Shown: positions 375-25,395 of the stretch, in pieces
Numbering within the stretch: the stretch's first letter is position 1
Layout of the letters: each line of letters opens with the position of its first letter
From: Pelosinus sp. UFO1
Lineage (GTDB): Bacteria; Bacillota; Negativicutes; DSM-13327
DNA length: 64,000 bases
Direction of reading: 5' to 3'
NCBI RefSeq assembly: GCF_000725345.1
Contig: NZ_CP008852.1
Span: 3,960,001-4,024,000, forward strand
The notes under the pieces: model-generated
Seen by the model: the letters and a program-made list of their open reading frames with translations, nothing else
Told to the model about the DNA's origin: nothing
Databases searched by the model: none
Made by a program: the position numbers and the translations under genes

Positions 375-431
375 TTCTTCATAGGTTCTTCATAGGTCTT
401 TCATTAGATATTCATATTATTTAGGTATTAT
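375..431 (+). promoter_or_regulatory. TTCATA direct-repeat promoter, site 1
   Basis: Four repeats with 11-bp period start at 375, 386, 397 and 408 (TTCTTCATAGG twice, TCTTTCATTAG, ATATTCATATT). The last TTCATA (411-416) is followed by 9 nt and a -10 TATTAT (426-431). There is no independent -35. The layout is identical to eleven other sites in the window, but this is the only one facing right. The inferred start site near 438 leaves a 25-nt leader to the gene at 463. Confidence 0.85.
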
Positions 432-462
432 ATGGGTAATAAGAATTAAGGGGGAAATTAAA

Positions 463-1092
463 ATGAAAAAAACTTTTATAACTGCATCCTTATTAGTAAT
501 GAATGTACTGGGAGCCAGTATGGTTTCCGCTAATGAAATTCTTCCGGAAATAAACCCAATTAAATCGATTGAAACAAAAAAGATTACCAGCGGAGCTCTC
601 GTTCGCTATGTCGCGATCGACCGCAATCCCACCCTCTATAATAAACAAGTAGCTGGCAATCATACGGTGGAAGGCTGGGTCAAAAATGGTGTAGTAAATA
701 CCAGAGTAGATGGAGTCGTAACTACGTCGTATCCTATCAATGGAGATCTTAAAACCATCACTAGTGGTAGTAAGAACAGCCAGCAGTATACTGTGATTGA
801 CCACAATCCTACCCACTACAACAAGAAGGCAGCTGGTAAGCATACGGTGGAATCCTTGGCGAAAAACGATATAGTCACTACCAAAGTTGATGGTGTTGTC
901 ACCAATGCTTATCGCATCAATGCGGACCTCGAAACGATCGTTAGTGGTAGCAAAAACAGTGGGCAATATACCGTAATTGACTACAATCCTAGCCACTACA
1001 GCAAAAAAACAATTGGCGGTCACACAGTGGAAGGCTGGATGGAAAATAGCGTAGTTAACACTAGAATTGACGGTGTTCCCTCCAAGTACTAA
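463..1092 (+). CDS. Secreted protein of three tandem repeats, unknown function
   Basis: A 209-aa protein. Residues 1-23 form a signal peptide ending near VSA. The rest is three repeats of about 55 residues, each running YxxIDxNPxxYxKxxxGxHTVE, then xxVVNTRVDGV, then a GSKNS linker. The third copy stops after DGVPSKY. I do not recognise the family. The ATG follows AAGGGGGAAATTAAA. It is the only plus-strand gene of the 1-31 kb cluster and stands alone between its promoter and a terminator. Its promoter carries the shared direct repeats, so it is probably an envelope-stress or metal-induced exported protein. That role is inference. Confidence 0.8.
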   Translation: MKKTFITASLLVMNVLGASMVSANEILPEINPIKSIETKKITSGALVRYVAIDRNPTLYNKQVAGNHTVEGWVKNGVVNTRVDGVVTTSYPINGDLKTITSGSKNSQQYTVIDHNPTHYNKKAAGKHTVESLAKNDIVTTKVDGVVTNAYRINADLETIVSGSKNSGQYTVIDYNPSHYSKKTIGGHTVEGWMENSVVNTRIDGVPSKY

Positions 1093-1111
1093 ACTTCAAT
1101 ACATATTTCAA

Positions 1112-1151
1112 AACCACTCTATCATTAACTAGGATAGAGTGGTTCCTTTTT
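1112..1151 (+). terminator. Terminator between convergent genes
   Basis: Perfect 12-bp arms (AACCACTCTATC at 1112-1123, complement at 1133-1144) followed by CCTTTTT. It ends the repeat-protein transcript. Confidence 0.85.
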
Positions 1152-1181
1152 CTATACTTCATTGTGTATATGAGATAACTA

Positions 1182-1601
1182 TTATTCTGAGATGATCTGA
1201 ATAATAGTTGGCTGCATTTTATCGTCCATACGGGCGCTATTATCATAATATTTGATATACCATATCGATAATAAGGTCATTCCTGATCCGCCAATTAACC
1301 TTGAAATTAATTCTTCAAATCCTAAAAATCGTCCTATAAAATCACCAATAATAGCACCGGCAAGAGCGGCTAGCAGCGGCAGTATGTATACAGTAAAGGC
1401 TGCCTTTAGCATATTTATTTCTTTAATTTCCACTAGAACTCGTTGACCAGGCTTGGCTCCCACAGAGTTGCGAGCGTCTAAGACCATTGCACTATTACCG
1501 GGACAAGCTCCACAATTCTCACAATCATTATGACGACTGGTTTTCACTTTGGCCATACGACCACTCACTTCCAATACCATTCCTTCTTGCTGTTTTTGCA
1601 T
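1182..1601 (-). CDS. RseC/MucC-family membrane protein
   Basis: A 139-aa protein matching the RseC/MucC (SoxR-reducing system) family. A soluble N-terminal beta domain of about 60 residues contains the cysteine cluster CENCGACPG. Two membrane helices lie at about 68-110, and a short tail follows. In proteobacteria RseC modulates sigma-E or the Rsx electron-transfer complex; in Firmicutes the role is unclear. The ATG at 1601 follows GGAGTGAATCGAT. It has no direct-repeat promoter and is separated from the next minus-strand gene by a terminator, so it is probably a single-gene unit. Confidence 0.8.
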   Translation of the reverse strand: MQKQQEGMVLEVSGRMAKVKTSRHNDCENCGACPGNSAMVLDARNSVGAKPGQRVLVEIKEINMLKAAFTVYILPLLAALAGAIIGDFIGRFLGFEELISRLIGGSGMTLLSIWYIKYYDNSARMDDKMQPTIIQIISE

Positions 1602-1704
1602 ATCGATTCACTCCTAAATTGAACTCAGAATAGAACCATCCTACCAAATAGTTAAGAATACACGATAAGGGTATATAAGTTCTGCTTTTTCGCCTGAGCT
1701 ACCT

Positions 1705-1748
1705 ATAAAGAAGATCAGGCACCCCAAAGGCGACCTGATCTTCTTTAT
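1705..1748 (-). terminator. Terminator at the end of the efflux operon
   Basis: Perfect 15-bp arms (1705-1719 and 1734-1748) that touch the stop codon of the NlpC gene at 1748-1750. It is the likely end of the 8694-1748 transcript. Confidence 0.88.
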
Positions 1749-2308
1749 CATAATACTCGTTTCGCACCATAATATCGCTGTATAAAATAACTATCATTCA
1801 TATCCCCAATAGCGACTACGCCTTTGGAAAAAGAGGTATGAATAAATTTATCCCTGCCAATATAAATTCCCACATGAGATGCACCTGGCTCATAGGTAGT
1901 AAAATACACTAAATCTCCTGGCTGCAAGGAAGCTGGCGATACGGTTCTACCCACTAAAAACTGTAGATCCGCGGTACGAGGCAAATTGATACCTGCTTGC
2001 CGATATACATATTGCACCAACCCGGAGCAGTCAAAACCTTGCCCAGGTGAAGCTCCTCCCCACACTACTGGTTGACCGAGCATACTCCTGGCAATGGTCA
2101 ATATTTGTGCCGACTGTCCAGGCTGGCCCGTAGGCAGAGTAACTGATCGAGCCGCTATTTGCTGCTCATCCGCTACCGGCATGGTCACTCCTGCTATGGA
2201 ATCCAATGACTGCATAAATTGGCTATAACCAGAGGTCGGAGAAGCCTGAACCACTCCTATGCCGTTAAAAAGAATCCCGGCAAATAGTATTGCTATCCAT
2301 TTTCTCAT
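1748..2308 (-). CDS. NlpC/P60 peptidoglycan hydrolase, exported
   Basis: A 186-aa protein with signal peptide 1-22 (cleavage near VQA). The NlpC/P60 catalytic domain covers about 65-186. Its triad is visible: Cys in FDCSG, His in PGASHVG and His in KFIHTS. The family cleaves peptide cross-links in the stem of peptidoglycan. The start has GGGAGGAGAAGTGG upstream. It is the last gene of the tolC-cusB-cusA-lipoprotein run, 28 nt after the lipoprotein gene, which suggests wall remodelling to seat the trans-envelope pump. A second NlpC protein at 13526 has a closely similar catalytic domain. Confidence 0.9.
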   Translation of the reverse strand: MRKWIAILFAGILFNGIGVVQASPTSGYSQFMQSLDSIAGVTMPVADEQQIAARSVTLPTGQPGQSAQILTIARSMLGQPVVWGGASPGQGFDCSGLVQYVYRQAGINLPRTADLQFLVGRTVSPASLQPGDLVYFTTYEPGASHVGIYIGRDKFIHTSFSKGVVAIGDMNDSYFIQRYYGAKRVL

Positions 2309-2335
2309 ATTCCACTTCTCCTCCCCCGCTAGCTA

Positions 2336-2800
2336 TTATTGATGTTGCATGGTTTGTAAGTGAGACGTGGTTGCCTGCATAGCATCTTGCATGGTCTTCA
2401 CTTTGCTTTCCATAGCACTAGGATCCATTTTGCCAGCGTTAACCGTATTTTTAATATCACCTGCCGCCTTGCGCAAATTATCCTTTAAACTGGCATCCAT
2501 CATATGTGGTAGAATTTTTTCGGTTGTACTAACTAACTGCCCTGCGCTCTTTTGTGCATCCATTGTTTGACCAGCTTTTACTTGTTTGACCACATCTTGC
2601 AATGATTTATCCAAATCCTTCATGATAGGCATAGGATCTTCTTTTGGCATCGTTGCACTATGCCCTTGATGACCAGATGCTTGTTCTTGACTAGCGGCTG
2701 GCGCCTGAGCAGGTGCTTTTTCACTAGATCCACACCCCGCTACCAGAGAAACAACTGCAATAATAGCTAATAAACCAAAGAGTACTTTACTTTTTTTCAT
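2336..2800 (-). CDS. Small His/Met-containing lipoprotein
   Basis: A 154-aa protein. The lipoprotein signal is residues 1-23 with lipobox LVAGC. A short Ala/Gln/His linker (GHQGHSATMP) and a helical domain with scattered Met follow. The C-terminal half is amphipathic helix without recognised motifs. The ATG is preceded by GGAGG. It lies between cusA and an NlpC gene in one operon, so a periplasmic or outer-leaflet accessory of the efflux pump, possibly metal binding, is plausible. No family recognised. Confidence 0.75.
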   Translation of the reverse strand: MKKSKVLFGLLAIIAVVSLVAGCGSSEKAPAQAPAASQEQASGHQGHSATMPKEDPMPIMKDLDKSLQDVVKQVKAGQTMDAQKSAGQLVSTTEKILPHMMDASLKDNLRKAAGDIKNTVNAGKMDPSAMESKVKTMQDAMQATTSHLQTMQHQ

Positions 2801-2861: not shown

Positions 2862-2886
2862 CAGCTTTACTATTAGTTAACTGTCT

Positions 2887-5800
2887 TTACTCAGCAGTGT
2901 GAGATTTTTCAGATACTGCCGGATTCTTACGCTCCCGCCACTGATTCCACACCAGATAGATGCACGGCAGAACGACCAATGTCAAAATTGTAGAAGTCAC
3001 TAGACCACCAACTACGACTGTGGCCATTGGGCGCTGTACCTCGGCACCCGTACCTGTGGCAAACAGTAATGGAAACAATCCTAAGCTAGCAACTAACGCG
3101 GTAATCATAACTGGCCGCAAGCGAGTAAAGGCGCCTTCTGTGATGGCTTCTTCTAAGGTTCGGTGATCTCTTAGGTGTTTAATATAGGTAACCATGATGA
3201 CCCCATTCTGCACCGCTATTCCAAAGAGAGCGATAAAGCCAACAGCAGCCGCTACCGTCATGTAGGTGCCGGTAGCATACATGGCTACAATGCCACCCAC
3301 CAAGGAAAAGGGAATGTTCATCAGGATGAGAAAAGCATCGCTAGCGGAACCAAAGGTCATATAGAGCAAGAAGAATGTGAGCACAATGACTGCTGGTACT
3401 ACCAAAGACAATCGGTCTTTCGCTCTTTGCTGATTTTCATACTGTCCGGTCCATTTCATAGAATAGCCGGCTGGCAAATCAACTTTTTCTTTGATAACCT
3501 GATTGGCTTCATTCACAAAGCTGACCACGTCTCGGCCCCGAGTATTCATCTGGACTATCATTCGATAAACTCCATTTTCACTACTGATCATGGACGGACC
3601 ATCTACAACCCGAAATTGAGCTACTTCACCTAGTGGCACATAAGCACCAGTAGCCGGGCCAGCCGCTGTGGTAGCTGCACCGCCACCCATGCCTGCGCCC
3701 ATTGCACCACCGTTGTTTTTCGTCCCAGAGCCACTACCCGTTACTGGAATGAGAATATTTTGCATGGCGTTAATGGATTCCCGGTTTTCCCGGTTATAGC
3801 GCACTAAGACGTTAAAACGTTTGCGTCCTTCAATGGTAGTGGTAGCATTTTTGCCGCCTACCGCTAACTCAACAGCATCTTCCACATCGGCAATGCTAAG
3901 ACCGTATCGGGCTGCTTTTTCCCGATTTACTTGAATTTCGAGATAGGAAGCGCCAAAGACTCGTTCAGCCAGCAGATCGCTAACTCCTGGTACAGCCCCT
4001 AGTGCTTTTTCAATTTCAAAGGCTTTTTGCTGCAGCACCTGCAGATCTTCCCCATAAAGTTTGATACCTAGTTCGGTACGAACTCCAGTGGTCAGCATGG
4101 ATAACCGTCCCGCAATCGGTTGGGTAAAGGCTAAGTTAAGTCCAGGTACATTGGCAAGTCTGACCATCATTTCTTGCTCAACCTTTTCTTTGGTCATGCC
4201 AGGCCGCCACTGCTCTTTGGGTTTTAACGTGACAATGGTTTCGATCATACTAATCGGCGCTGGGTCCATAGCAGACTCGGCTCGACCTACTTTCCCCACG
4301 GACATATCGATTTCCGGAATATCCATGATGACCTTATCCATGGTTTTAGCCGCTTCTAATACTTCTGATAATGACACATTAGGCAGCATAGTTGGCATAA
4401 CCAGAAAAGTTCCTTCATCCAAGGCCGGCATAAAAGTGGTACCAATTAGGGGCAATAATGAGAATCCAGCAATCATCACGACAATTGCTAAAATAATGGT
4501 GATTTTACTGTGCTTTAACACTGACTTCAAAGTGGGTACATACCATTGGTGCATTTTGGCAACAATCCAAGTATCTTTTTCCTGTATCTTACCTTTGAGC
4601 AATAAGGTACACAATACCGGTACCAAAGTGAAAGCCAACAGTAGTGATCCACTCATGGCAAAGGATTTAGCCCAGGCCATTGGAGTATACATTTTGCCTT
4701 CTGTTCCCGTCATAGTGAATACGGGTAAGAAGGTGACAATGATAATCGTGATAGAGAAGAAAATCGGTGCAGCTACTTCTTTCGCCGCTTCTAGCGTCAC
4801 ATCGATAATATTACGTCGACCGCCGTCTTCTGCCAGATGCCTGAAGATATTTTCAACCATAACAATGGCCGCGTCAGTCATAACACCAATACCGATGGCA
4901 ATGCCGCCAAGAGACATCAGGTTAGCTGATAGATGAATCTGTTTCATAGCAATCAGCGCAATTAAGATACCGATAGGAATAGCGCAGGTCACAATTAAGC
5001 TGGACCGTACATTCCCTAAAAATAAGATGACAATAATTGATACTAAAATAAATTCTTCCATCAATGCTCGGGTCAACGTATTCACTGCTTTTTTAACCAA
5101 ATCCGTCTGATCGTAAAAAGGTACAATTCGCATTCCTTCTGGTAGAGTCGGCCCAATTTCGGCGATTTTCGCTTTCACTTGGTCAATCACGTTCAGCGTG
5201 TTTTCCCCCATACGCTGAATGACAATTCCCCCAGCTGCTTCATAACCAGATTTGGTTAATACCCCTCGGCGAAAATCAGGGCCAGCAGTTACGTTAGCTA
5301 CGTCTTTGATATAAATTGGCACATTGTTATTTTGCGAGATCACAATATTTTTAATGTCATCTGGTGATTGGATTAATCCCAATCCACGGATGATAAATTC
5401 CTGGCCGTTTTGTTCGACTACTTTTGCACCGATATTGGCATTGTTGGCGCCGAGAGCCCCAAATACCTGGTTGAAAGTAATTCGATAGTTTTGTAGTAAA
5501 TGAGGATCAAGATTGATCTGGTATTGCATCACATAGCCACCAATGCTGGCAACTTCGGCCACTCCCGGCACTGCGCTCAATTGCTGCTTGATCGTGAAAT
5601 CTTCAACTGTACGCAAGTCCGCTAGATTGTGCCGGTCACTTTCCACGGTATACATAAAAACTTGGCCCATGGGGGTGCTGACTGGACCCAAGGCAGGCTG
5701 TACGCCTCGTGGTAGTTGGGGAATCGCCTGCTGCACTTTTTCGTTCACAACTTGGCGAGCAAAGTAAGGGTCTACCCCTTCTTCAAAAATTACAGTGATA

Positions 5801-6075
5801 AGTGACATCCCGAAAGAGGAAGCGGAACGTACTTCTTTCACTTTTGGCAATCCACGCAAGGCAGTTTCCAGGGGATAAGTAACCTGATCCTGGATTTCCT
5901 GGGGACCCCGGCCCATCCAATCAGCCGAGACAAGAACCTGGTTTTCACTGAGGTCAGGAAAAGCGTCGATTGGGGTATCCTTTACGGTAAAGGCTCCCCA
6001 AACAATGACCAACGCATATAACACCAGGATAATCGCGCGATTTTTCAAGGAAAACTCGATTAATTTATTAAGCAT
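2887..6075 (-). CDS. cusA: Heavy-metal RND efflux pump, CusA/CzcA family
   Basis: A 1062-aa inner-membrane proton antiporter, full length for the HME-RND family. Visible features are the N-terminal helix (KNRAIILVLYALVIVWG), the porter domain, the TM4 proton-relay motif MTDAAIVMVEN with its Asp, and a repeat of the fold in the C-terminal half. The TM4 motif resembles CusA (monovalent copper/silver) more than CzcA, but substrate cannot be fixed from sequence alone. A low-complexity Gly/Ala/Met insert (about 775-800, GAMGAGMGGGAA) lies in the second periplasmic half and is unusual. The ATG follows GGAGGAGCAAC. The gene starts 11 nt after cusB. Confidence 0.92.
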   Translation of the reverse strand: MLNKLIEFSLKNRAIILVLYALVIVWGAFTVKDTPIDAFPDLSENQVLVSADWMGRGPQEIQDQVTYPLETALRGLPKVKEVRSASSFGMSLITVIFEEGVDPYFARQVVNEKVQQAIPQLPRGVQPALGPVSTPMGQVFMYTVESDRHNLADLRTVEDFTIKQQLSAVPGVAEVASIGGYVMQYQINLDPHLLQNYRITFNQVFGALGANNANIGAKVVEQNGQEFIIRGLGLIQSPDDIKNIVISQNNNVPIYIKDVANVTAGPDFRRGVLTKSGYEAAGGIVIQRMGENTLNVIDQVKAKIAEIGPTLPEGMRIVPFYDQTDLVKKAVNTLTRALMEEFILVSIIVILFLGNVRSSLIVTCAIPIGILIALIAMKQIHLSANLMSLGGIAIGIGVMTDAAIVMVENIFRHLAEDGGRRNIIDVTLEAAKEVAAPIFFSITIIIVTFLPVFTMTGTEGKMYTPMAWAKSFAMSGSLLLAFTLVPVLCTLLLKGKIQEKDTWIVAKMHQWYVPTLKSVLKHSKITIILAIVVMIAGFSLLPLIGTTFMPALDEGTFLVMPTMLPNVSLSEVLEAAKTMDKVIMDIPEIDMSVGKVGRAESAMDPAPISMIETIVTLKPKEQWRPGMTKEKVEQEMMVRLANVPGLNLAFTQPIAGRLSMLTTGVRTELGIKLYGEDLQVLQQKAFEIEKALGAVPGVSDLLAERVFGASYLEIQVNREKAARYGLSIADVEDAVELAVGGKNATTTIEGRKRFNVLVRYNRENRESINAMQNILIPVTGSGSGTKNNGGAMGAGMGGGAATTAAGPATGAYVPLGEVAQFRVVDGPSMISSENGVYRMIVQMNTRGRDVVSFVNEANQVIKEKVDLPAGYSMKWTGQYENQQRAKDRLSLVVPAVIVLTFFLLYMTFGSASDAFLILMNIPFSLVGGIVAMYATGTYMTVAAAVGFIALFGIAVQNGVIMVTYIKHLRDHRTLEEAITEGAFTRLRPVMITALVASLGLFPLLFATGTGAEVQRPMATVVVGGLVTSTILTLVVLPCIYLVWNQWRERKNPAVSEKSHTAE

Positions 6076-6086: not shown

Positions 6087-7367
6087 TTACTGACCACCAT
6101 GGCCGCTATGTTCGCTCCCGGTAGCAGGTGCCGGAGCAACCCCGCCGCTATTTGTACCGCCCGAAGGTGCAGGTGCACTAGTCTCCTTAGCTGCTGAACC
6201 GCCACCATGGCCGGCATGACTGCCAAAGCTGCCTAATTTAGTCTGGGAATCAATAAGGAAGTTGGCTGCCGTGACCACTGTTTCTCCAGGCTGTAGTCCA
6301 GACAGAATCTGAACATAACCATCAGCGTATTGCCCTATAACTACATCACGTTTGACAAAGGTATCTTCACTTTGGGCAACAAAGACGGTTTTACGGCTAC
6401 CGCTATCCAAGATACTGGATTCCGGTATGACTAAACTATCTCCCAGCGATATTTGCACATTCGCATTAACGAACATATTCGGTTTTAATTTACCACTCGG
6501 ATTAGCCATTTCAACCCTTACTTTTACTGTTCGCGTGGCATCATCAAGCACCGGGTTAATAAAGGTTACTTGCCCGTTAAAGGTTTCTCCCGGATAAGCG
6601 CCGCTAGTTACCACAACTGGTTGACCTATTTGAATCCCTGCTATATCTTTTTCGTAAATATCGGCATACAGCCAAAGAGTGGATAGGTCGGAAAGACTAT
6701 ACAGTTTATCACCAGGCATAATGAATGCTCCCGGCAAAATTTGTTTCTCAAGAACAGTACCGCCAAACTGAGCGTAGATAGTCATATGATCATTAGGTTT
6801 TCTAGTATGCTCTAAATGAGCGATATCACCATCCGGCACGTTTAACAACTGTAATTTACGCCTTGCAGCTTCCCGCAGACGGTTGTTGATCTGGACTACA
6901 TCTTTACCCGCGTTTTGCAGCTTTTGTACATTTTCTAATGTTAATAAGTATTCTTCCTGGGCCGCGATATAGGTTGGACTATATACAGAAGCGATAGCTT
7001 GCCCTGGAGCAATATAATCACCGTCAGCGGTTACGTATAGTTCATCAACTCGCCCTTCCACTCGGGAAGTAATGTAGGTCCGCCCACTTTCATTCATGGC
7101 AATCTTACCAGTAGTTTTGATTTCTTTTGCTAAAGCCTTGGCAATTGCTTGTGCTGTTTGCACCCCGGCCAATTGCCTAGCCTTGGCGTCCAGAGTAACC
7201 GTATCGCCCATGGCCATAATCGGTCCAGACATTTGATGTCCGCTATGATCTACAGCGACTGGTTTATTGTGCTGCATGGTATAGTAGTAACCGGCACCGC
7301 CAAAAACCAGGATACCAGCAGTCACCCCTATGATAATTTTCTTTTTGTCACGTAATTTTTCGATCAT
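6087..7367 (-). CDS. cusB: Efflux periplasmic adaptor, CusB family
   Basis: A 426-aa membrane-fusion protein with an N-terminal anchor helix (about 10-30), a heavy-metal adaptor segment, lipoyl/barrel-sandwich halves, a hairpin helix and a beta-barrel. The His/Gly-rich C-tail (HAGHGGG near the end and a final SEHSGHGGQ) could bind metal. I chose the ATG at 7367 because AGGAGAGG precedes it. The longer frame to 7412 would start inside tolC and lacks a site. It links CusA to the TolC-type channel and may hand over metal. Confidence 0.9.
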   Translation of the reverse strand: MIEKLRDKKKIIIGVTAGILVFGGAGYYYTMQHNKPVAVDHSGHQMSGPIMAMGDTVTLDAKARQLAGVQTAQAIAKALAKEIKTTGKIAMNESGRTYITSRVEGRVDELYVTADGDYIAPGQAIASVYSPTYIAAQEEYLLTLENVQKLQNAGKDVVQINNRLREAARRKLQLLNVPDGDIAHLEHTRKPNDHMTIYAQFGGTVLEKQILPGAFIMPGDKLYSLSDLSTLWLYADIYEKDIAGIQIGQPVVVTSGAYPGETFNGQVTFINPVLDDATRTVKVRVEMANPSGKLKPNMFVNANVQISLGDSLVIPESSILDSGSRKTVFVAQSEDTFVKRDVVIGQYADGYVQILSGLQPGETVVTAANFLIDSQTKLGSFGSHAGHGGGSAAKETSAPAPSGGTNSGGVAPAPATGSEHSGHGGQ

Positions 7368-7395
7368 GCTGTCCTCTCCTTTTCCACCTTGCTTG

Positions 7396-8694
7396 TTATG
7401 GCTGTGCTCCACTGGTAAATAAAGGTTTACCTACCGCTTTTTCTAAATTTGCCGCTGCTTTTTCATAATCTATACGAGCTTTATAGTAATCCAATCTCAC
7501 GTTACGGAGAGCATTGAGACTATCTAGGACAGCCATAAAATCCACTTTACCGTTGGTATAACTCACGACTCCAGCTTGATAGGTTTGTTCTGCTTGAGGA
7601 ATCACTGTATTTTTATATAGGTCAATTCGACGCCAGGCCGATTGGGCTTCTGTCAGCGCCATCTGCAAGTCCAAACCGGTCATATTTTGCATATTGTTTA
7701 GTGAAGCCTGGGCTGCTTCTAAGTTAGCCGAAGCCGATTTAATTTCTGCTTTGTTTTTCCCCTGCCAAATTGGCAGCATAACCATAAATTCCATTTTCCA
7801 GGTATCCGGTGTAGTTTCCATTTCAGTTTGCTTTCTATCTTTATAACCAATGCTGAATTGATAATCTGGTAGTTGCTGCTTTTTAGCCAATTCTACACCA
7901 TTCTTTGCCATTTCCACTTGTCGTTCCATGCTCACAACAGTTGGCTTACCGGTTTGTGCTTCTGTTTGCAATTTGTCCAAATCAAATGTAGGAGGCGGAG
8001 CGCTGAATTCTTCTTTCACCGCTAACGGTGTATCTGCTTTACGGCCAATGACAGTATTGACTTTCGCTTTTGCCACTGCCGCCATGGACGCCATGCTCAA
8101 CAAATCGGTAGTCATTTTAGAAAACTCGGTCTGAGCCCTAAGTGTATCCTGCAACGGTACCATGCCAGTGGAATAGTTAACCTGAGCAATCTGAACTAAC
8201 TGGCCCATAAGTTGCTGATTTTCCTTACCAATCTCCAGCGCTTTATCGGCATAGAGCAGGTCATAATAGGCTGTTTTGGCCGTAGTATAGACCTCCATCT
8301 GCTTATCTTGGTAATTAGCTTTGGCCATTTCGGCATCGCTACCAGCCATTTTGCCCATGGCTTTTAGTTTGGCTGGATTCATAAATTCCTGGGTTAAAGT
8401 ATATTCGGTCATCATAGCATCAAAAGGATTTAAGCTACCGTTTGGTATGTCGTCTTTCATAATCCCAAACTGCGGATTCGGCAAGGCTTTAGCCAGCGGA
8501 ATACGGGCTTGTTTTTCCTCCCAGCGTTTTTGACTTTCGATTACAGCCGGATTGCTTTTAACAGCCGTATCCACTACTTGCTTTAACGACAATGTTTCCT
8601 GGACCTCCGCCGCCATAGCTGGTGCCATAATTCCCAATACGAGCACAGCGGTCAATGGCAGTGTTTTGTGTTGAAACCATTTTATAACTTTCAT
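7396..8694 (-). CDS. TolC-type outer-membrane efflux channel (CusC role)
   Basis: A 432-aa outer membrane efflux protein with a signal peptide at about 1-28 (ending near AMAAEV). Two OEP repeats are rich in long helices, with the typical MEVYTTAKTAYYDLLYADKAL and LQMALTEAQSAWRRI segments. It forms the outer-membrane duct of the CusCBA pump, which itself implies a diderm cell. It is the first gene of the operon tolC-cusB-cusA-lipoprotein-nlpC and has the four-copy TTCATA promoter 90 nt upstream. Confidence 0.9.
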   Translation of the reverse strand: MKVIKWFQHKTLPLTAVLVLGIMAPAMAAEVQETLSLKQVVDTAVKSNPAVIESQKRWEEKQARIPLAKALPNPQFGIMKDDIPNGSLNPFDAMMTEYTLTQEFMNPAKLKAMGKMAGSDAEMAKANYQDKQMEVYTTAKTAYYDLLYADKALEIGKENQQLMGQLVQIAQVNYSTGMVPLQDTLRAQTEFSKMTTDLLSMASMAAVAKAKVNTVIGRKADTPLAVKEEFSAPPPTFDLDKLQTEAQTGKPTVVSMERQVEMAKNGVELAKKQQLPDYQFSIGYKDRKQTEMETTPDTWKMEFMVMLPIWQGKNKAEIKSASANLEAAQASLNNMQNMTGLDLQMALTEAQSAWRRIDLYKNTVIPQAEQTYQAGVVSYTNGKVDFMAVLDSLNALRNVRLDYYKARIDYEKAAANLEKAVGKPLFTSGAQP

Positions 8695-8780: not shown

Positions 8781-8840
8781 ACTATACAGATAAGTTATGA
8801 AGAAGTTGTGAAGAAGTCATGAAGATCTCATGAAGATATA
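8781..8840 (-). promoter_or_regulatory. TTCATA direct-repeat promoter, site 2 (efflux operon)
   Basis: On the plus strand TGAA begins at 8798, 8809, 8820 and 8831, exactly 11 bp apart. The proximal TTCATA (8801-8796) is 9 nt from -10 TATAGT (8786-8781). Confidence 0.9.
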
Positions 8841-8937: not shown

Positions 8938-9033
8938 TCATTCTTCCTTGATAGATACCTCTTCAATTCGATTTAAAAGATAATACCATAAATACCCAAC
9001 GACTACCGATTGGATTATAAGTAATCCCAACAT
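8938..9033 (-). CDS. 31-residue single-span membrane peptide
   Basis: ATG at 9033-9031, stop at 8940-8938. The product starts MLGLLIIQSVVVGYLWYY and ends NRIEEVSIKEE: one membrane helix followed by a short charged tail. The ribosome-binding site GAGGTGAAGGGCA precedes the ATG. It has its own repeat promoter 40 nt upstream, which makes real expression likely. Size and shape are those of small regulators of membrane kinases or transporters; its place between the efflux operon and the kinase gene suits that, but this is inference. No family recognised. Confidence 0.7.
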   Translation of the reverse strand: MLGLLIIQSVVVGYLWYYLLNRIEEVSIKEE

Positions 9034-9071: not shown

Positions 9072-9119
9072 ATAATATCTAACTGGTGTGAAGATCTCAT
9101 GAAGAAAGTTTGAAGAACT
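9072..9119 (-). promoter_or_regulatory. TTCATA direct-repeat promoter, site 3 (31-aa peptide)
   Basis: TGAA on the plus strand at 9089, 9100 and 9111 (11-bp period). The proximal TTCACA (9092-9087) is 9 nt from -10 TATTAT (9077-9072). Confidence 0.88.
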
Positions 9120-11195: not shown

Positions 11196-11280
11196 AAGAA
11201 GCCCCCCTCTCATACAACATTCACATTCTACTATTCATCCTTTGACCATTTTCTTCCTCTTTCGGCAACTTGTCTTACTG

Positions 11281-14215: not shown

Positions 14216-14233
14216 TCTTGTTCCGCCTTTCTT

Positions 14234-14929: not shown

Positions 14930-15065
14930 TTAGTATTTCCTTCACCCGCTGATACTCTTCATTGGTAATTTCACCATAGTATATCCCTGCTTTTAATAGT
15001 TCTATTGTATCAACTTTATCGTCTGGGCTATACCGAAAAATCGCTTTATACATCCAGGCCATCAT
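14898..15065 (-). CDS. Small SHOCT-domain protein (55 aa)
   Basis: Starts MMAWMYKAIFRY and ends in a SHOCT-type oligomerisation motif (ELLKAGIYYGEITNEEYQRV), the short C-terminal domain often found on small membrane or stress proteins. There is no membrane helix. GAGGAAG lies 12 nt upstream, and the repeat promoter is 45 nt upstream. It resembles the C-terminal half of the 80-aa SHOCT protein at 18115 (KGEITTDEYQRMKKEL), so the two may interact. Confidence 0.75.
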   Translation of the reverse strand: MMAWMYKAIFRYSPDDKVDTIELLKAGIYYGEITNEEYQRVKEILNKKNMLSLHS

Positions 15066-15107: not shown

Positions 15108-15165
15108 ATAATACCGAATTCATATGAATTTCTATTGAAAAACATATGAATTTATTGTGATCTTT
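15108..15165 (-). promoter_or_regulatory. TTCATA direct-repeat promoter, site 8 (55-aa SHOCT)
   Basis: TGAA on the plus strand at 15125, 15136 and 15147, then TGAT at 15158. The proximal TTCATA (15128-15123) is 9 nt from -10 TATTAT (15113-15108). Confidence 0.87.
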
Positions 15166-15247
15166 TAAATATGGCCCTTATATTGCCAAAAGAAGGTGAA
15201 TAATTTATGAATATCTTTTCTAAAACTCATTGAAGATTCCTATGAAG

Positions 15248-16930
15248 CTATTTTTTCATCTGACGAAAAATGCGAAAGAATAAATATAGCGTGCCTCCGA
15301 GTGCTACCAATAACAGATAATAGCCAGTGTGATGGATTTGTGCTTGAATTGGTCCCGCTCCTGAGTGCATCATAATAGCCGATGTTAGAAACATACTGGC
15401 AATGATCAAGCTATAGGAAATACGATTAATAGACTTGTCCAGCTTTTCTCCGATAAATTCAATACCACTAATGGTCAAGGGAATTTTCTTTTCGCCGCGG
15501 ATCATCCCCGAAAGAAAAGATGGTAACTCGCTGAACACAATCCGTAACTTTTTCTTCGTGGCAAGGGCATTTGCCAAAACCACCGTCTCACTAGGTCGCA
15601 CCAGAAGATTCTTATGTAAGAATTCTTCAATAATCGGCCGGGCAATCTCCAAAAAGTTGACGTTTGGGTCAATTTTTCGCGCATTCCCTTCAGCCAGAGC
15701 AAATGCTTTACCTAGCAGCAGTAACCGTTCCGGCATGCGGATACCATGCTTTTGCGAAACTTGCATCATGCCAAAAATCATTTTTCCTATCTCCAGTTTG
15801 CCCTGGGTCATCCCCTGAGACACGAAAAGCAGTTCAGCCATATCCTCATAATAATTTTGCCAGTTGGTATGTCCCGAAGATTGTCCCATCTCAAGCGCCA
15901 CATTCATCAACGCTTCCACATCGCTATTCTGTATCGCAGTGAAGTTTTCCACTAATCGTTCGGTCATACGCGGATCAGTACGCCCAACGATACCGAAATC
16001 CAGATATACAATTTCACCTGCAGGGGTCAGACGAATATTCCCGGAATGAGGGTCGCCGTGGAAGACACCATACAATAACACCTGGCGCAGAAAACTTTCT
16101 AAAAATTTGCTGGCTAGTTTCCGTCGAGCCGCCAAATCTAGTTTCCCTGCCGCTTCCTCGATACTTATGCCATCAATAAATTCCATCGTCAAAATATTCT
16201 CATTGCTGAGCCTCCACTCCACCTGTGGCGTACGAGCCAAACCCGCCCCGGCCAGTAACCGACTAAACAACTGGATATTACCGGCTTCCACAGCAAAATC
16301 AAATTCCTTACGGAGGGAATGGGAAAAAACCATGAAGCTATTTTCAATATCCAACAGTTTATACACTTCGGGCTGTTCGGCTAAAAATCCAACGATTTTT
16401 TGCAACACCATTAAGTCCAGTTCGATCTGATTGATAACCTCTGGCTTACGGACTTTGATCGCAACTTTACGACCATCTTGTAAGGTGGCTAAATGGGTCT
16501 GAGCAATGGATGCTACCCCTAATGGCTCCGGATCAATCGATACAAACCATTCTTTATAATCCGGCAAGTTCTCCGCGATTATTTCTTGTATGTGCGCAAA
16601 CGGTACTGGCGTCACTTGCTCCTGCAGCCGCTGTAAGGCATCGGTTACAAATACTGGCACAAAATCAGGCCGACTACTTAGAAATTGGCCGAGCTTAATA
16701 AACGTCGGCCCCAATTCTTCCAACATCAACGGTAATTTTTGTGCCAATCGCCGGAACTCTTCACTTTTAATTGTCTTGTCTAAAGCACCTGCCCGCCCCC
16801 AGGAACCGAAGGCAAAAAAACGTCGCAATCCCAAATCTCTTACCAAAAAACCAAAACCGTACCTGATAAATACACTCGCAATATGACGGGTTCTCGCCCG
16901 CACCGCATCTTCCCTATGCCATGTTGCCAT
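15248..16930 (-). CDS. AarF/UbiB-family atypical protein kinase
   Basis: A 560-aa protein of the ABC1/ADCK/UbiB family. The Ala-rich nucleotide loop is replaced in the usual family way (ASIAQTHLATL). The catalytic Lys is in VAIKVRKPEV, with HGDPHSGNI and YLDFGIVGR forming the catalytic and metal sites. Two C-terminal membrane helices (about 500-555) anchor it. In quinone-making bacteria UbiB supports ubiquinone biosynthesis; here a role in isoprenoid or lipid trafficking is possible. I start it at ATG 16930 behind AGGCGG; a GTG at 16936 is the alternative. Confidence 0.9.
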   Translation of the reverse strand: MATWHREDAVRARTRHIASVFIRYGFGFLVRDLGLRRFFAFGSWGRAGALDKTIKSEEFRRLAQKLPLMLEELGPTFIKLGQFLSSRPDFVPVFVTDALQRLQEQVTPVPFAHIQEIIAENLPDYKEWFVSIDPEPLGVASIAQTHLATLQDGRKVAIKVRKPEVINQIELDLMVLQKIVGFLAEQPEVYKLLDIENSFMVFSHSLRKEFDFAVEAGNIQLFSRLLAGAGLARTPQVEWRLSNENILTMEFIDGISIEEAAGKLDLAARRKLASKFLESFLRQVLLYGVFHGDPHSGNIRLTPAGEIVYLDFGIVGRTDPRMTERLVENFTAIQNSDVEALMNVALEMGQSSGHTNWQNYYEDMAELLFVSQGMTQGKLEIGKMIFGMMQVSQKHGIRMPERLLLLGKAFALAEGNARKIDPNVNFLEIARPIIEEFLHKNLLVRPSETVVLANALATKKKLRIVFSELPSFLSGMIRGEKKIPLTISGIEFIGEKLDKSINRISYSLIIASMFLTSAIMMHSGAGPIQAQIHHTGYYLLLVALGGTLYLFFRIFRQMKK

Positions 16931-16963
16931 TCCCACACCGCCTACAAAACATTATATAGTATC

Positions 16964-17090: not shown

Positions 17091-17843
17091 CTACCATTTC
17101 CGGTCCGCTCCGCCGCCGCCCCCTGATCCACCACCATATCCTCCGCCCCCACTACCACGCAACCTGAGCAATGATAATAGGAGAAAGGTAATGCTGCCGC
17201 CGAGGAGTAGCCAATCTGCGATAAATAGAAGAAAAACCCCTACAACAGCCGCCCCTTGCACCCACCATGGCAAACCATCCCACCATGCCGGAACAAGGTC
17301 GCCGCTTACTTTTGCAGTTCCTCGGGCATCTTGCGGTGCTACGATACCATATTCGGCAGAGACCAACCGCATGATAGCTTTATAGCTGTTCCAGATTCCC
17401 TGATCATAGTCACCACGCCCAGCATAGAGTATAAGGTATTCATCTTGAAGCTGCCCGACCTTGGCGTCGTTTAAAGCCCCTTCCAAACCATACCCTACCT
17501 CGACACGAGACTTTCGATCACCAACGGCTACCAACAGCAATACTCCGTTATTCAGCGATTTATCGCCGATTTTCCACTGTCTGAGCATCGCTAGTGAATA
17601 ATCTTGAATTGGTTCCTCATTCAACGAATTGACAGTAACTACTACTACTTGTGCCTTGGTCTGCCTAGAAATCTTTGCTCCTAGTGTATTGATCTTCGCC
17701 TTGGTTTCTCCGCTTAATACGCCGGCGTAATCCTGCACATATATACTGCCCGCAGGGGCAGGCGGTATGGCAGGCGCCGCCGAAGCTACCGTACCGATGA
17801 CCATATATACCGCCATCAGCAACCACACCAGCCATTTTTTCAT
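17091..17843 (-). CDS. TPM-domain membrane protein (YgcG-like)
   Basis: A 250-aa protein with signal peptide 1-23 (ASAAP). The TPM phosphatase-like domain covers about 25-160 (VYVQDYAGVLSGETKAKI, GDRKSRVEVGYGLEGALND). One or two helices lie at about 190-225, and a Gly-rich tail (GGGGYGGGSGGGGGADRKW) ends the protein. Start chosen: ATG 17843 behind GGAGGGG. The longer frame to 17906 begins upstream of the inferred promoter and cannot be translated from it. Family members work beside LemA proteins, and lemA here shares the same promoter type. Confidence 0.9.
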   Translation of the reverse strand: MKKWLVWLLMAVYMVIGTVASAAPAIPPAPAGSIYVQDYAGVLSGETKAKINTLGAKISRQTKAQVVVVTVNSLNEEPIQDYSLAMLRQWKIGDKSLNNGVLLLVAVGDRKSRVEVGYGLEGALNDAKVGQLQDEYLILYAGRGDYDQGIWNSYKAIMRLVSAEYGIVAPQDARGTAKVSGDLVPAWWDGLPWWVQGAAVVGVFLLFIADWLLLGGSITFLLLSLLRLRGSGGGGYGGGSGGGGGADRKW

Positions 17844-17877
17844 AACCACCCCTCCCTCACTTCCCTCTATTACCACT

Positions 17878-17925
17878 ATTGTACAATGTCCGTATGAAGA
17901 ACTCATGAATATCCTATGAATATCT
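17878..17925 (-). promoter_or_regulatory. TTCATA direct-repeat promoter, site 9 (TPM)
   Basis: TGAA on the plus strand at 17895, 17906 and 17917. The proximal TTCATA (17898-17893) is 9 nt from -10 TACAAT (17883-17878). Confidence 0.88.
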
Positions 17926-18114: not shown

Positions 18115-18357
18115 TTATTCCAGCTCTTTTTTCATGCGCTGATATTCATCAGTAGTAATTTCCCCTTTGGCGTACCGCTGTTTTAATATCTCCACAGCGT
18201 CAGTCCGGACCCCATTTGTAGTGCCGCCACGGAATAGCGTTTTAAATAGCCAAACCACTGCCATTATAATAAGAGCGGTAAACGCCAAATGAACGAGCAT
18301 TCCTAGGCCCATGCCCAACCAGCCGAAGGGGCCACCGAAACCGTAACCCATCATCAT
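18115..18357 (-). CDS. SHOCT-domain membrane protein (80 aa)
   Basis: Starts MMMGYGFGGPFGWLG. One membrane helix (about 17-42) is followed by a SHOCT motif (EILKQRYAKGEITTDEYQRM). This is a very common Firmicute small-protein layout with no fixed function. The start has AGGAGGTGCATGAACT upstream. It stands in its own unit between a repeat promoter and a terminator. A 14-codon Met-rich frame (18040-18084) follows before the terminator, but I do not call it. Confidence 0.82.
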   Translation of the reverse strand: MMMGYGFGGPFGWLGMGLGMLVHLAFTALIIMAVVWLFKTLFRGGTTNGVRTDAVEILKQRYAKGEITTDEYQRMKKELE

Positions 18358-18386: not shown

Positions 18387-18430
18387 AGTATAGCTTAACA
18401 TTATGGAGTTTTTATGAAGAAACTGTGCGT
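18387..18430 (-). promoter_or_regulatory. TTCATA direct-repeat promoter, site 10 (80-aa SHOCT)
   Basis: Weakest site of the set: TCCATA (18407-18402), then TTCATA 11 bp upstream (TGAA at 18415), then degenerate copies at 18426 and 18437. The 9-nt gap to -10 TATACT (18392-18387) is conserved. Confidence 0.75.
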
Positions 18431-18675: not shown

Positions 18676-19185
18676 TTATTGTCCCATATGTTGCATATGT
18701 TGCATATTTCCACCAACAGCATTGGGATTCCATCCCATAATAGTTGGATCAACCATCCCAAAAATCATGGCTACGTGAGCAACAACGAGAAACACGGTCA
18801 ATAGAATGAAATGGAGCTTCATCTTTTCATCATCAGATTTGCTCTTGCCGATTACACCGAGTTCCAACAAAGCAATACCAAACAGCGGAATTACACCACT
18901 GAGATAAGCCCCTACCGCGAGTATATCAGCAATGCCGCGCCACTGAATAGTAGGAACAACAGTGGTTGTTAAGTTGAGAAAGACGCCTAGAAAGTAAAAC
19001 CCTAGAAAAATACCAATCACCTTATTGGCTGTTCTCCATCCACCAGCATTGGACCCACGAAGGAAGACTGTGAAAAATTCAGTTGCAACAAGTGCTTCCG
19101 CCAGAGCCACAGGAATCACCATATACAAAATTAAATTCCAAGGCTGATTGACAGCCAGCAATTCCATATAGTGTGTCATAACCAT
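18676..19185 (-). CDS. Multi-span membrane protein with Met/His tail
   Basis: About 169 aa with four to five membrane helices (LYMVIPVALAEALVATEFF, IGIFLGFYFLGVFL, LSGVIPLFGIALLEL, FILLTVFLVVAHVAMIFGM). The tail ends NMQHMQHMGQ, which could bind metal. I cannot name the family with confidence. The start is a judgement: the inferred transcription start near 19215 excludes the frame's first ATG at 19230, and AAGGATGGTG lies 9 nt before ATG 19185. The alternative is 19200. Confidence 0.7.
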   Translation of the reverse strand: MVMTHYMELLAVNQPWNLILYMVIPVALAEALVATEFFTVFLRGSNAGGWRTANKVIGIFLGFYFLGVFLNLTTTVVPTIQWRGIADILAVGAYLSGVIPLFGIALLELGVIGKSKSDDEKMKLHFILLTVFLVVAHVAMIFGMVDPTIMGWNPNAVGGNMQHMQHMGQ

Positions 19186-19221: not shown

Positions 19222-19282
19222 ATTATACAAATAAAATGTGAAGATCTTGTGAAGAAACGATGAAGAACTTATGAAGTTGTGC
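19222..19282 (-). promoter_or_regulatory. TTCATA direct-repeat promoter, site 11
   Basis: TGAA on the plus strand at 19239, 19250, 19261 and 19272. The proximal TTCACA (19242-19237) is 9 nt from a consensus -10 TATAAT (19227-19222). Confidence 0.92.
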
Positions 19283-23136: not shown

Positions 23137-23137
23137 G

Positions 23138-23899
23138 TTATTCAGTCTCTCCTTTCCGATACCACAACCATAAGCTACTAGCAAGCATTGCCGTTAACAG
23201 CGCCGTCATTTGCGCCACTTTAAGACCGCCAAATAGTAAGCTATCCGTACGTAAAAATTCCAAACCAAATCGGGCCAGGGAATAGAGAATGAAATAGGTT
23301 ATTGCCACCTGTCCATCAAACTGTTTCCGACGGAATATATACAGTAGGACGGCTAGAATCATGAGATCAAACCCAGCCTCAAATAGTTCGGCTGGCACCA
23401 ATGGCATTGCTCCCCATGCTTGATATGCCGATGTTCCCGGCTGATAGACAACGCCATACCAGGCAGTTGTCGGCTTTCCATAGGCATCACCGTTTAATAA
23501 ACAGCCAATACGCCCAATAGCCTGCCCTAGGATAAGACCTGGTGTACTAATATCGGCAAAACGCCGGAAGGATAATCCTTTACTTCGGAAATACCATCCC
23601 GCCAGCAATAAATTGGCTATCACCGCTCCCTGAATGGAGAGCCCCCCCTGCCAAAACATCAACGCCTGCAAAGGATTGCTGCTATAGTCTTGCCAAGAGA
23701 AGACAACTTCCCAAACGCGTGCTCCTAAAAATCCTGCTATTACACCATATAAAACATATTCTTGCAATAGCTCTGCCGAAAACTCACTGTTTCTTGCTAG
23801 GCGTGTCGCTAGCCACAAGCCGGCAAATACTCCTAAAGCTACCATAAGTCCCCAGGCGCGAAATTCCAAACCACCAATACTAAATAAGATGGGATACAT
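23138..23899 (-). CDS. lgt: Prolipoprotein diacylglyceryl transferase family protein
   Basis: A 253-aa membrane protein with seven helices and Lgt signatures (WGLMVALGV, GARVWEV, WQGGLSIQG, AIGRIGCLLNGDAYG). Lgt attaches diacylglyceryl to the lipobox Cys of lipoproteins. The His of the HGG motif, important in E. coli Lgt, is Gln90 here, so activity may differ or this may be a paralogue. A housekeeping copy elsewhere cannot be excluded. It follows the Met-rich protein gene after a 220-nt gap containing a hairpin. Confidence 0.85.
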   Translation of the reverse strand: MYPILFSIGGLEFRAWGLMVALGVFAGLWLATRLARNSEFSAELLQEYVLYGVIAGFLGARVWEVVFSWQDYSSNPLQALMFWQGGLSIQGAVIANLLLAGWYFRSKGLSFRRFADISTPGLILGQAIGRIGCLLNGDAYGKPTTAWYGVVYQPGTSAYQAWGAMPLVPAELFEAGFDLMILAVLLYIFRRKQFDGQVAITYFILYSLARFGLEFLRTDSLLFGGLKVAQMTALLTAMLASSLWLWYRKGETE

Positions 23900-24107: not shown

Positions 24108-24122
24108 AGATGGACAAATAAA

Positions 24123-24557
24123 CTAGGATGGGTGATGAGCATTATGATCGACGGTATCGGGTGCATTAGATGGTGTACTGAACTGCGAAACCGAATTATC
24201 ATTTTGGTCATTGATGTCTATCGAATTAACCAAGTCACGCATGATCTGCCGCATTTCCGGATCACTTGCCAGCATTTGCTTCATCGTGGCCTGCATTTCT
24301 GGCTGCTTCATCATCCCTTTCATTGTCTCTTGCATATCACTGCTTTTCATCATATCCACGCATTGTTTTTGCATTTCAGGCGAATTCATCATTTCCATAT
24401 TATCCTTTTGTCCATTTTGCATCATCTTGCCTTGCATAACTGGCGGTTTGTCAGCAATTTTCTCCGCCGCACTTCCCACATTAGTACCCATTAGCAAACC
24501 AGCGGCAGAAATAGCAAAAACCCCACCCATAATCCAACTTGTCATTCTTTTTTTCAT
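24123..24557 (-). CDS. Methionine-rich exported protein
   Basis: A 144-aa protein with signal peptide 1-30 (GSAAEK). The mature part has repeated MxxM and MMKxxxMQxxMKxMM motifs (about 45-105) and a His-containing end (DHNAHHPS). About a fifth of the central residues are Met. Such sequences bind Cu(I)/Ag(I) in the oxidising envelope. It sits in the run 25305-24123, which starts at a repeat promoter. No exact family recognised. Confidence 0.75.
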   Translation of the reverse strand: MKKRMTSWIMGGVFAISAAGLLMGTNVGSAAEKIADKPPVMQGKMMQNGQKDNMEMMNSPEMQKQCVDMMKSSDMQETMKGMMKQPEMQATMKQMLASDPEMRQIMRDLVNSIDINDQNDNSVSQFSTPSNAPDTVDHNAHHPS

Positions 24558-24641
24558 AATTATTTATCCTCCTTCAAAATCTTATTATCAATATAACTAA
24601 GCCTATAGTTATAGGCAAAGGGTGAGTAACTCAGATCAAAA

Positions 24642-24836
24642 TTAGATTTCCACCAAAGCATATTGAAACCAAAGGCCTCTGCGCTCTAAAATCCGCCGTA
24701 CCTGTCCAGTGGTAATCAAGGTACGCGGGTCGTACAGCGAATAGCGTTTTTTTAACAAGCGCTCTAGCTTCGTTGTAATAGCAAAAAAATGTTTTGAATC
24801 TGCTTTTTCATATGCTTCAACAATCAATGCTTCCAT
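24642..24836 (-). CDS. Small conserved-looking protein of unknown function (64 aa)
   Basis: Starts MEALIVEAYEKADSKHFF and ends LWFQYALVEI. It is a soluble, mixed alpha/beta composition with a basic middle (ERLLKKRYSLYD). The start has a strong AAGGAGGAAAGTACT site. The longer frame to 24905 would overlap the upstream gene and has none. It lies inside the small-protein run driven by site 12. I do not recognise it. Confidence 0.65.
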   Translation of the reverse strand: MEALIVEAYEKADSKHFFAITTKLERLLKKRYSLYDPRTLITTGQVRRILERRGLWFQYALVEI

Positions 24837-24885
24837 AGTACTTTCCTCCTTACGTCTTATATTTAAAATGTCAGTGTACCAATCA

Positions 24886-25146
24886 CTAACTAGATTGCTT
24901 TTCATCCTCCGCTTTTTTACCCATGCTCCTCATCATGAAAAAATGCATCAGCGGACACATGAGAAGCACCAAGTAATTGGCTGATCCTTCATAACCACTT
25001 TGTTTGAGCAGCAGAACCAGACCGAGGGGAGCCAAGCAGCATACCATCATCATCACCATATGCTTCCAACCACCACCGCAGCCCTGATGTTGCGCGTGGC
25101 TGGTTTCTTGTCCTTTGATTTGAGACACTTGTTTATATTGATCCAT
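24886..25146 (-). CDS. DUF2933-like small membrane protein (86 aa)
   Basis: A His/Cys-containing N-terminus (ETSHAQHQGCGGG) is followed by two helices (MVMMMVCCLAPLGLVLLL and YLVLLMCPLMHFFMM) and a charged tail. The pattern matches DUF2933-type proteins seen in copper and heavy-metal clusters. My recall of the family is moderate. The start has GGGAGG upstream. It lies 18 nt after the 46-aa protein gene in the same unit. Confidence 0.7.
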   Translation of the reverse strand: MDQYKQVSQIKGQETSHAQHQGCGGGWKHMVMMMVCCLAPLGLVLLLKQSGYEGSANYLVLLMCPLMHFFMMRSMGKKAEDEKQSS

Positions 25147-25164
25147 CCTATTTTCCTCCCTTGA

Positions 25165-25305
25165 TTAAGAATGCATAATCATCGCTATTGCTATAAAGAC
25201 TGTGCCCCAAGCACCCCATTGCAATAATGTCAGCACTCCCTTTTGCCATGGAGTATATTCTACGCTGCCTTCGATTATTTCCGGCGATTTATTGTTTTCT
25301 TCCAT
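25165..25305 (-). CDS. 46-residue single-span membrane protein
   Basis: ATG at 25305-25303, stop at 25167-25165. An acidic N-terminus (MEENNKSPEIIEGSVEYTPW) is followed by one membrane helix (LQWGAWGTVFIAIAMIM). GGAGGAATATAGA precedes the ATG. It is the first gene after repeat promoter site 12, followed by three more small genes in the same orientation. No family recognised. Confidence 0.72.
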   Translation of the reverse strand: MEENNKSPEIIEGSVEYTPWQKGVLTLLQWGAWGTVFIAIAMIMHS

Positions 25306-25347
25306 TCTATATTCCTCCATCTAGCTGATGAACTTTGTATTGTCCTT

Positions 25348-25395
25348 ATCTTACCATGCTGTTATGAAGAACCTGTGAAGAACTCTTGAAGAACT
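25348..25395 (-). promoter_or_regulatory. TTCATA direct-repeat promoter, site 12
   Basis: TGAA on the plus strand at 25365, 25376 and 25387. The proximal TTCATA (25368-25363) is 9 nt from a weak -10 TAAGAT (25353-25348). Confidence 0.82.

Follow-up and report, generated by a model that had tools for sequence, protein, structure and literature searches.

The window analysed here, a 64,000-nt stretch of Pelosinus sp. UFO1 (contig NZ_CP008852.1, positions 3,960,001 to 4,024,000), contains a 25-kb cluster in which twelve promoters carry tandem copies of a TTCA-cored direct repeat, referred to below as the box. The genes behind the boxes encode a heavy-metal pump of the resistance-nodulation-division (RND) family, an OmpR/PhoB-type response regulator with its histidine kinase, and a series of envelope, secreted and small membrane proteins. 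The boxes are candidate operators of that regulator. The features are listed below with the position of the gene-proximal repeat copy (aa, amino acids; PWM, position weight matrix).

378..431, plus strand: box, 4 copies, proximal copy 411, -10 at 426 (PWM score 37.2)
463..1092, plus strand: secreted repeat protein without a Pfam family; a family member follows a box in 7 genomes, the own one among them
8781..8834, minus strand: box, 4 copies, proximal copy 8801; promoter of the OEP-CusB-CusA operon
7396..8694, minus strand: outer membrane efflux protein (OEP; PF02321)
6087..7412, minus strand: CusB/CzcB-like adaptor with His/Met stretches
2887..6075, minus strand: CusA/CzcA heavy-metal RND pump (TIGR00914, 1141.8 bits; alignment to 3t51)
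2336..2800, minus strand: small lipoprotein-like protein of the pump operon
1748..2308, minus strand: NlpC/P60 protein (Pfam) of the pump operon
9072..9114, minus strand: box, 3 copies, proximal copy 9092
8938..9033, minus strand: TM31, a 31-aa protein with one hydrophobic stretch by eye
11866..11908, minus strand: box, 3 copies, proximal copy 11886; promoter of the LemA-regulator-kinase operon
11281..11838, minus strand: LemA (PF04011)
10500..11213, minus strand: response regulator of OmpR/PhoB type
9332..10507, minus strand: histidine kinase whose short extracytoplasmic loop is Met/His-rich
12281..12334, minus strand: box, 4 copies, proximal copy 12301
11987..12175, minus strand: 62-aa secreted-looking protein with C-terminal HSGHHM
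13238..13269, minus strand: box, 2 copies, proximal copy 13258
12477..13154, minus strand: TVP38/VTT membrane protein (PF09335)
14494..14525, minus strand: box, 2 copies, proximal copy 14514
13526..14296, minus strand: peptidoglycan-binding and NlpC/P60 hydrolase, start codon uncertain
15108..15150, minus strand: box, proximal copy 15128, copies 1 and 3 exact
15180..15211, minus strand: second, weaker tandem box (15200), absent from the initial annotation
14898..15065, minus strand: 55-aa SHOCT-like protein; clusters by BLAST with the 80-aa SHOCT protein, no Pfam match itself
17878..17920, minus strand: box, 3 copies, proximal copy 17898; upstream of TPM, then ABC1
17091..17849, minus strand: TPM-domain protein (PF04536)
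15248..16936, minus strand: ABC1/UbiB-like kinase (Pfam), probably in one operon with TPM; same order behind one box in the sister genome G006
18387..18418, minus strand: box, 2 copies, proximal copy 18407
18115..18357, minus strand: SHOCT protein (PF09851)
19222..19275, minus strand: box, 4 copies, proximal copy 19242; upstream of DUF6803
18676..19185, minus strand: DUF6803 protein with Met/His-rich tail (PF20617, E 3e-69)
25348..25379, minus strand: box, 2 copies and a degenerate third, proximal copy 25368
25165..25305, minus strand: TM46, a 46-aa protein; a homologue precedes the regulator in G001-G005 and G007
24886..25146, minus strand: DUF2933 protein (PF11666)
24123..24557, minus strand: Met-rich secreted-looking protein; matches GerD below the cut-off
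23138..23899, minus strand: Lgt-like prolipoprotein diacylglyceryl transferase (Pfam), possibly the end of the 25368-box operon; in G013 and G028 lgt is directly preceded by a box

A PEMT/ICMT-like methyltransferase is also encoded in the cluster.

The TTCA-cored repeat recurs with an 11-bp period at all 12 promoters. Each of the twelve sites named in the initial annotation was found at its coordinates and in its orientation, and the distance of 9 nt claimed between the gene-proximal copy and a -10-like hexamer was exact at 12/12, the hexamer being TANNNT throughout. The accompanying description of two to four TTCAYA copies per site stood as regards the TTCA core and the period; the repeat itself is degenerate. 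An exact TTCAYA occupies the proximal position at 11 of the 12 sites (TCCATA at 18407), TTCA is kept in the distal copy at 12/12, and 2–4 contiguous copies are present at 11/12 when at most one mismatch per copy is allowed. At 15128 the second copy is damaged, with two mismatches (TTCAAT). Only 6 exact TTCAYA pairs lie 11 bp apart in the window, and the exact same-strand spacings of up to 30 bp were 11 (6), 22 (6) and 19 (1), with no others. The consensus of the 12 window sites and one site elsewhere in the genome (C1:1542812) is WTCTTCAYAAGWTCTTCAYA-N8-GTATAATA, and the half-site of the tandem repeat is AGWTCTTCAYA. The weaker site at 15200(-), which scored 20.8 with a PWM built from these 13 sites of the genome itself, has a counterpart in G006.

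Direct repeats of 11 bp, a fixed -10 distance and no separate -35 were seen at 12/12 sites, and this geometry bears out the earlier reading of PhoB-type promoters. The reading as a single regulon is also supported. As in PhoB/PhoP-type systems, the tandem 11-bp repeats overlap the -35 region. The -10 distance is the same as at the Pho box of E. coli phoA; the Pho half-site is GTCAYA, not TTCAYA. A phosphate regulon was rejected because Pfam identified no phosphate gene among the window targets.

TTCAYA-N5-TTCAYA, with at most one mismatch, was matched 24 times in the window as compared to 2.3 +/- 1.6 times in shuffled sequences. In the whole genome (a single contig of 5,115,410 bp) the extended pattern gave 21 matches at up to three mismatches and its reversed control 3; matches with zero or one mismatch were confined to the cluster except for C1:1542812. 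The gene directly downstream of this site is a paralogue of the window target DUF6803. A later profile of 47 sites recovered, at E ≤ 0.02, 11 cluster matches representing 10 of the 12 promoters, together with C1:1542812; site 25368 was matched partly (E 0.53), 17898 was not among the listed matches, and further matches outside the cluster began at E 0.09. The 13-site PWM, applied to the window and 40 loci (740,600 bp), gave 110 matches at scores of at least 18 versus 0 in the reversed control, which had 2 at scores of 10–16; the loci were partly chosen by motif (L188-L194 included), and only the ratio of real to control matches is meaningful for these totals. The 47-site matrix had no control matches at scores of at least 12. 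Genes were called crudely and without curation, with 22 of 168 sites falling inside a long open reading frame and 33 having no downstream gene found. Most of the regulon lies in the cluster, and a single strong site was found elsewhere in this 5.1-Mb genome.

A search of the genome and its relatives had been proposed with the initial annotation, and in related genomes boxes were found to precede orthologous genes. The regulator-kinase operon lies behind a box in 18 genomes (a paralogous pair counted in), DUF6803 in 18, the OEP-CusB-CusA operon in 17 and a secreted, Met-rich protein of the DUF2680-like kind in 14; SHOCT, lipoprotein, NlpC, Lgt, TVP38 and other genes do so in fewer. These counts include the own genome where the gene is present and come from loci partly chosen by motif. 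No target is shared more widely than DUF6803, the regulator operon and the pump.

DUF6803 genes, which Pfam identified in 64 of 250 genomes belonging to the class, were also assessed independently of the training loci. In the region comprising 350 bases upstream and 20 bases of the gene, a box scoring at least 12 was present at 31 of 40 Pfam-picked genes, one scoring at least 5 at 36, and none at 4. None of 840 controls (40 reversed and 800 shuffled) reached 12, the maximum being 7.0. The box ended 29–60 nt before the DUF6803 match in 30 of 36 loci, and among the best 12 of the 40 sites none was identical to a training site. Training-locus genes, G171, G208 and the fragments or broken copies in G053, G074, G006:C1 and G009:C2 were left out. 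At seven DUF6803 promoters of families f11 and f15 (L327, L328, L331, L332, L338-L340) the half-site TCTTCA is replaced by TCTGCA, a variant that fits joint drift of box and regulator.

The regulator at 10500 consists of a receiver and a winged-helix Trans_reg_C domain (PF00072 and PF00486, both above cut-off), which places it in the OmpR/PhoB type. Its operon is led by lemA and preceded by box 11886, a position that points to autoregulation. A box was present within 1.5 kb upstream in 32 of 40 regulator-family loci compared to 0 of 20 loci of other OmpR-type regulators (p 7e-10). The 40 loci were drawn from 45 listed matches at 52% identity or more, excluding the window's own locus, G012, G042, G003:C63 and G037:C7, and the controls were matches at 43–48% identity taken regardless of motif. 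Because 14 of the 32 best regulator-locus sites are identical to a training site, this test leans towards a positive answer. Among 59 relatives, a site at E ≤ 1e-3 occurred in 26 of 33 genomes with the regulator and in 4 of 26 without it (p 1.3e-6), and the window-derived pattern gave the same trend (p 5e-7). The regulator was found without such a site in G012, G025, G030, G037, G042, G048 and G049; G037 (E 6.9e-80) was counted as regulator-bearing.

The best sequence argument comes from genomes in which the regulator is decoupled from the cluster. Regulator and target cluster are 2.7–2.9 Mb apart in G002 and G004, and they lie on different contigs in the draft genomes G001, G003, G005 and G007. 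The fetched regulator neighbourhood in each of G001-G005 and G007 nevertheless has a single box, before TM46-regulator-kinase. Because the box stays with the regulator, the regulator probably reads it, in agreement with the earlier proposal that the OmpR/PhoB-type protein encoded in a target operon is the likely master of the regulon.

In a sample of the phylum, a site at E ≤ 1e-4 was found in 9 of 299 genomes (own included) compared to 27 of 60 relatives, a rough contrast as fewer candidates per genome were scored in the phylum scan. On this basis the regulon seems to be largely restricted to the class. Single strong box-like matches in one family (f98) were seen outside the class in G332, G367, G472 and G495.

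Several features bear on the nature of the signal. The pump aligned with E. coli CusA (3t51) at 798.7 bits and has Met at all three positions of the methionine triad, which we take to be M573, M623 and M672 in CusA numbering. Placement of this CusA-type Cu/Ag pump under the box in the 17 genomes, own included, was judged by box position only. At least 3 Met/His residues are present in the last 20 residues of DUF6803 in 21 of 24 tails checked. A multicopper oxidase lies behind a strong box in the cluster of sister genome G006 (L197, G006:C10, site near 76866); none was found among the annotated window genes. Kinases of the family have extracytoplasmic loops of about 30–50 residues (65 in G024) with mostly 12–28% Met+His (10% in G026), as counted in regulon-type kinases alone, with the loops of G006 and G003 wrongly cut to include membrane sequence and that of the G004 paralogue missed by the pattern. 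The window's own kinase also has a short Met/His-rich loop. Of the metal-stress regulon with an RND pump first described, the pump stands as a CusA/CzcA-type metal exporter, and because it carries the methionine triad the signal is narrowed from metal stress to Cu(I)/Ag(I), the most likely candidate, with induction by copper predicted.

The DNA itself shows the anatomy of the operators, their conservation, their association with the regulator family and the type of pump. With a probability of roughly 0.7, we propose that the regulator at 10500 governs this regulon in response to Cu(I)/Ag(I), acting through direct-repeat operators. The kinase (9332-10507) would sense periplasmic Cu(I) or Ag(I) via its short loop and phosphorylate the regulator (10500-11213). 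Regulator dimers would bind the 2–4 tandem 11-bp half-sites across the -35 region and, in the manner of PhoB at Pho boxes, bring sigma-70 polymerase to the -10 that follows after 9 nt. Induction would extend to the regulator's own operon and the Cus-type pump, to putative metal-binding secreted or membrane proteins (DUF6803 and the Met-rich proteins), and to envelope maintenance genes (LemA, TVP38, NlpC/P60, TPM/ABC1, SHOCT and Lgt).

Several points weigh against this proposal. Met+His content of the whole regulon was not significantly above that of neighbouring genes (p 0.19), and general Met/His enrichment was dropped as evidence for copper. The loop percentages refer to kinases of the regulon type. 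We know of no copper role for LemA, TPM, ABC1, SHOCT or TVP38. The regulator scored 166.3 against a cut-off of 279.2 with the CopR/SilR subfamily model TIGR01387, and it is 33% identical to Synechocystis CopR. Eight of the 40 regulator-family loci had no box at a score of at least 12 within 1.5 kb (in one, G028, a box is farther up, before lgt-PEMT-regulator), and G008, G010, G022 and G044 have a site without a close regulator. Some targets could also belong to a paralogous regulator, 56% identical, that has related boxes. Binding, activation and the copper or silver signal are, finally, predictions made from sequence.

One alternative keeps the same operators and regulator and takes general envelope damage as the signal, in the manner of BaeSR or Cpx, with copper as one of several inducers. 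The best NCBIfam scores of the regulator were to BaeR, MtrA, RpaB and PhoB, all below cut-off; by this measure BaeR of E. coli BaeSR, at 240.7 bits, is the closest regulator, and the regulator at 10500 is 45.6% identical to the E. coli gene annotated as BaeR. The kinase scored 241.4 bits to WalK and, second, 234.4 to BaeS, and many of the targets resemble envelope-maintenance genes. However, the equivalog cut-offs for BaeR (380) and BaeS (603) were missed, the pump is of the heavy-metal type with the CusA triad rather than a drug pump, and the sensor loop is Met/His-rich. A general envelope signal is considered unlikely.

An alternative that we regard as improbable is that another member of the OmpR family, such as the paralogue or PhoB/WalR, reads the boxes. 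The paralogue's own promoter has a related TCTCCA variant, and TCCA occurs at window site 18407 and at SHOCT and DUF2680 sites of other genomes. However, the absence of the box from all 20 control regulator loci and its persistence with the 10500-type regulator away from the cluster argue for the latter as the reader. The paralogue (G000:C1:1069884-1070564, L196) has a Met/His-loop kinase and adjoins a 174-aa duplicated DUF2680-like Met-rich secreted protein; the TCTCCA-type boxes of their promoters were matched at E 0.09 and 0.16. A search of the genome contigs with the regulator returned, among the matches listed, only relatives at 40–51% identity. Another paralogous-regulator match, G004:C1:1104610-1105296, contains one TAA according to the search, yet its open reading frame was called at 231 aa. 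That AT-rich promoters merely happen to contain repeats, without a dedicated regulator, was rejected as having a negligible chance of being right: the repeats are degenerate, with few exact pairs, but the shuffle, reversed-genome, PWM and matrix controls, the strict 9-nt and 11-bp geometry, retention of the box before the same genes in many genera, and the DUF6803 and regulator-locus tests all contradict it.

The initial annotation knew of no described regulon with this motif, a statement that does not hold, as the motif matches the copper CopR boxes of Corynebacterium glutamicum and Synechocystis, both of which have the TTCA half-site at 11 bp. C. glutamicum CopR binds TGAAGATTTnnTGAAGATTT, as determined by electrophoretic mobility shift assay and mutation (PMC3140484). 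The reverse complement of this box, AAATCTTCAnnAAATCTTCA, has the same TCTTCA half-site and 11-bp period, and CopRS is, like the system predicted here, an autoregulated copper two-component system. According to the parts of that paper available, CopR has one genomic site, compared to about 13 here, and its target region comprises a P-type ATPase and a multicopper oxidase, with no RND pump named there. The Synechocystis CopR box is given as TTCATN4-5TTCAT in the text available (PMC4182526); upstream of copM and copB on plasmid pSYSX, successive TTCAT copies have a start-to-start distance of 11 bp, which corresponds to N6, so that the published form is one or two bases tighter. The Synechocystis PCC 6803 copMRS-copBAC genes, as described in the portion available (PMC4335983), encode a heavy-metal efflux RND pump, a Met-rich secreted protein and a two-component system, and share all of these with the present cluster along with the TTCAT repeats. 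In contrast, the extracytoplasmic stretch of CopS is, by eye, far longer, and only two operons are involved.

E. coli CusRS-CusCFBA likewise places a CusA-type pump with the methionine triad under a two-component system. Its CusR box is an inverted repeat, and the present regulator and kinase fall below the cut-offs of TIGR01387 and TIGR01386 (kinase, 180.9 versus 292.55 bits). The B. subtilis YclJ box is reportedly TTCATANTTTNTTCATA, an 11-bp repeat. The YclJ regulon includes a DedA-family gene and differs in its glycosylation genes and its link to oxygen limitation, as far as described in the sections available (PMC7961091). Because the half-site and period are shared, yet identity to Synechocystis CopR is 33% and the subfamily cut-off is missed, the regulon appears to work like CopRS/CusRS, with membership of the regulator in that protein subfamily not supported. 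No described copper two-component regulon of diderm Firmicutes was found in the open-licence literature, among the matches listed, and DUF6803 and DUF2680 were not mentioned in the listed matches on DUF6803, DUF2680 and SHOCT. The matches listed for direct-repeat boxes and for YclJ contained nothing relevant either.

Other observations were made near the cluster and in relatives. Adjoining the cluster, the region 25756-30141 has no box and encodes an HMA-DsbD_2-cupredoxin fusion, an internally duplicated lipoprotein-like protein and an FTR1 permease. At L352 (G009:C82:95000-103000), another regulator-kinase pair has TTCACA repeats about 40–60 nt upstream and is followed by a 137-aa secreted protein that is Spy/CpxP-like by eye. 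Direct repeats of the TTCGTCAYA/TTTGTCACA type were seen at L350, L351, L353 and L354 (G002, G003, G004), with nearby genes that have no evident copper link and, by eye, no phosphate-related gene recognised downstream of these four sites; they are probably operators of another OmpR-type regulator. Sites of the TTCGTCAYA type are also present in G001, G005 and G007.

The putative regulon is a conserved, autoregulated, PhoB-type direct-repeat regulon of the class. It combines a broad envelope gene set with a minimal Met/His sensor loop, in a system that is most likely Cu(I)/Ag(I)-responsive. A more tentative extension, whose chances we place somewhat short of even, is a Cu(I)/Ag(I) envelope-stress regulon that occurs class-wide in outer-membrane-bearing Firmicutes, with a new minimal-kinase family whose sensor is a 30–50-residue Met/His loop, a paralogous pair reading the TCCA variant, and DUF6803 as a new copper-handling membrane protein that is nearly obligatory. 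Probably in diderm Firmicutes, the regulon offers a testable function and inducer for DUF6803, the DUF2680-like and DUF2933 proteins and the 31- and 46-aa proteins, and would connect copper or envelope stress with LemA, TVP38, TPM/ABC1, SHOCT and Lgt. The use of similar TTCA repeats by regulators that are only about 33% identical may provide a case for how the specificity of OmpR-type regulators is kept or re-evolved.

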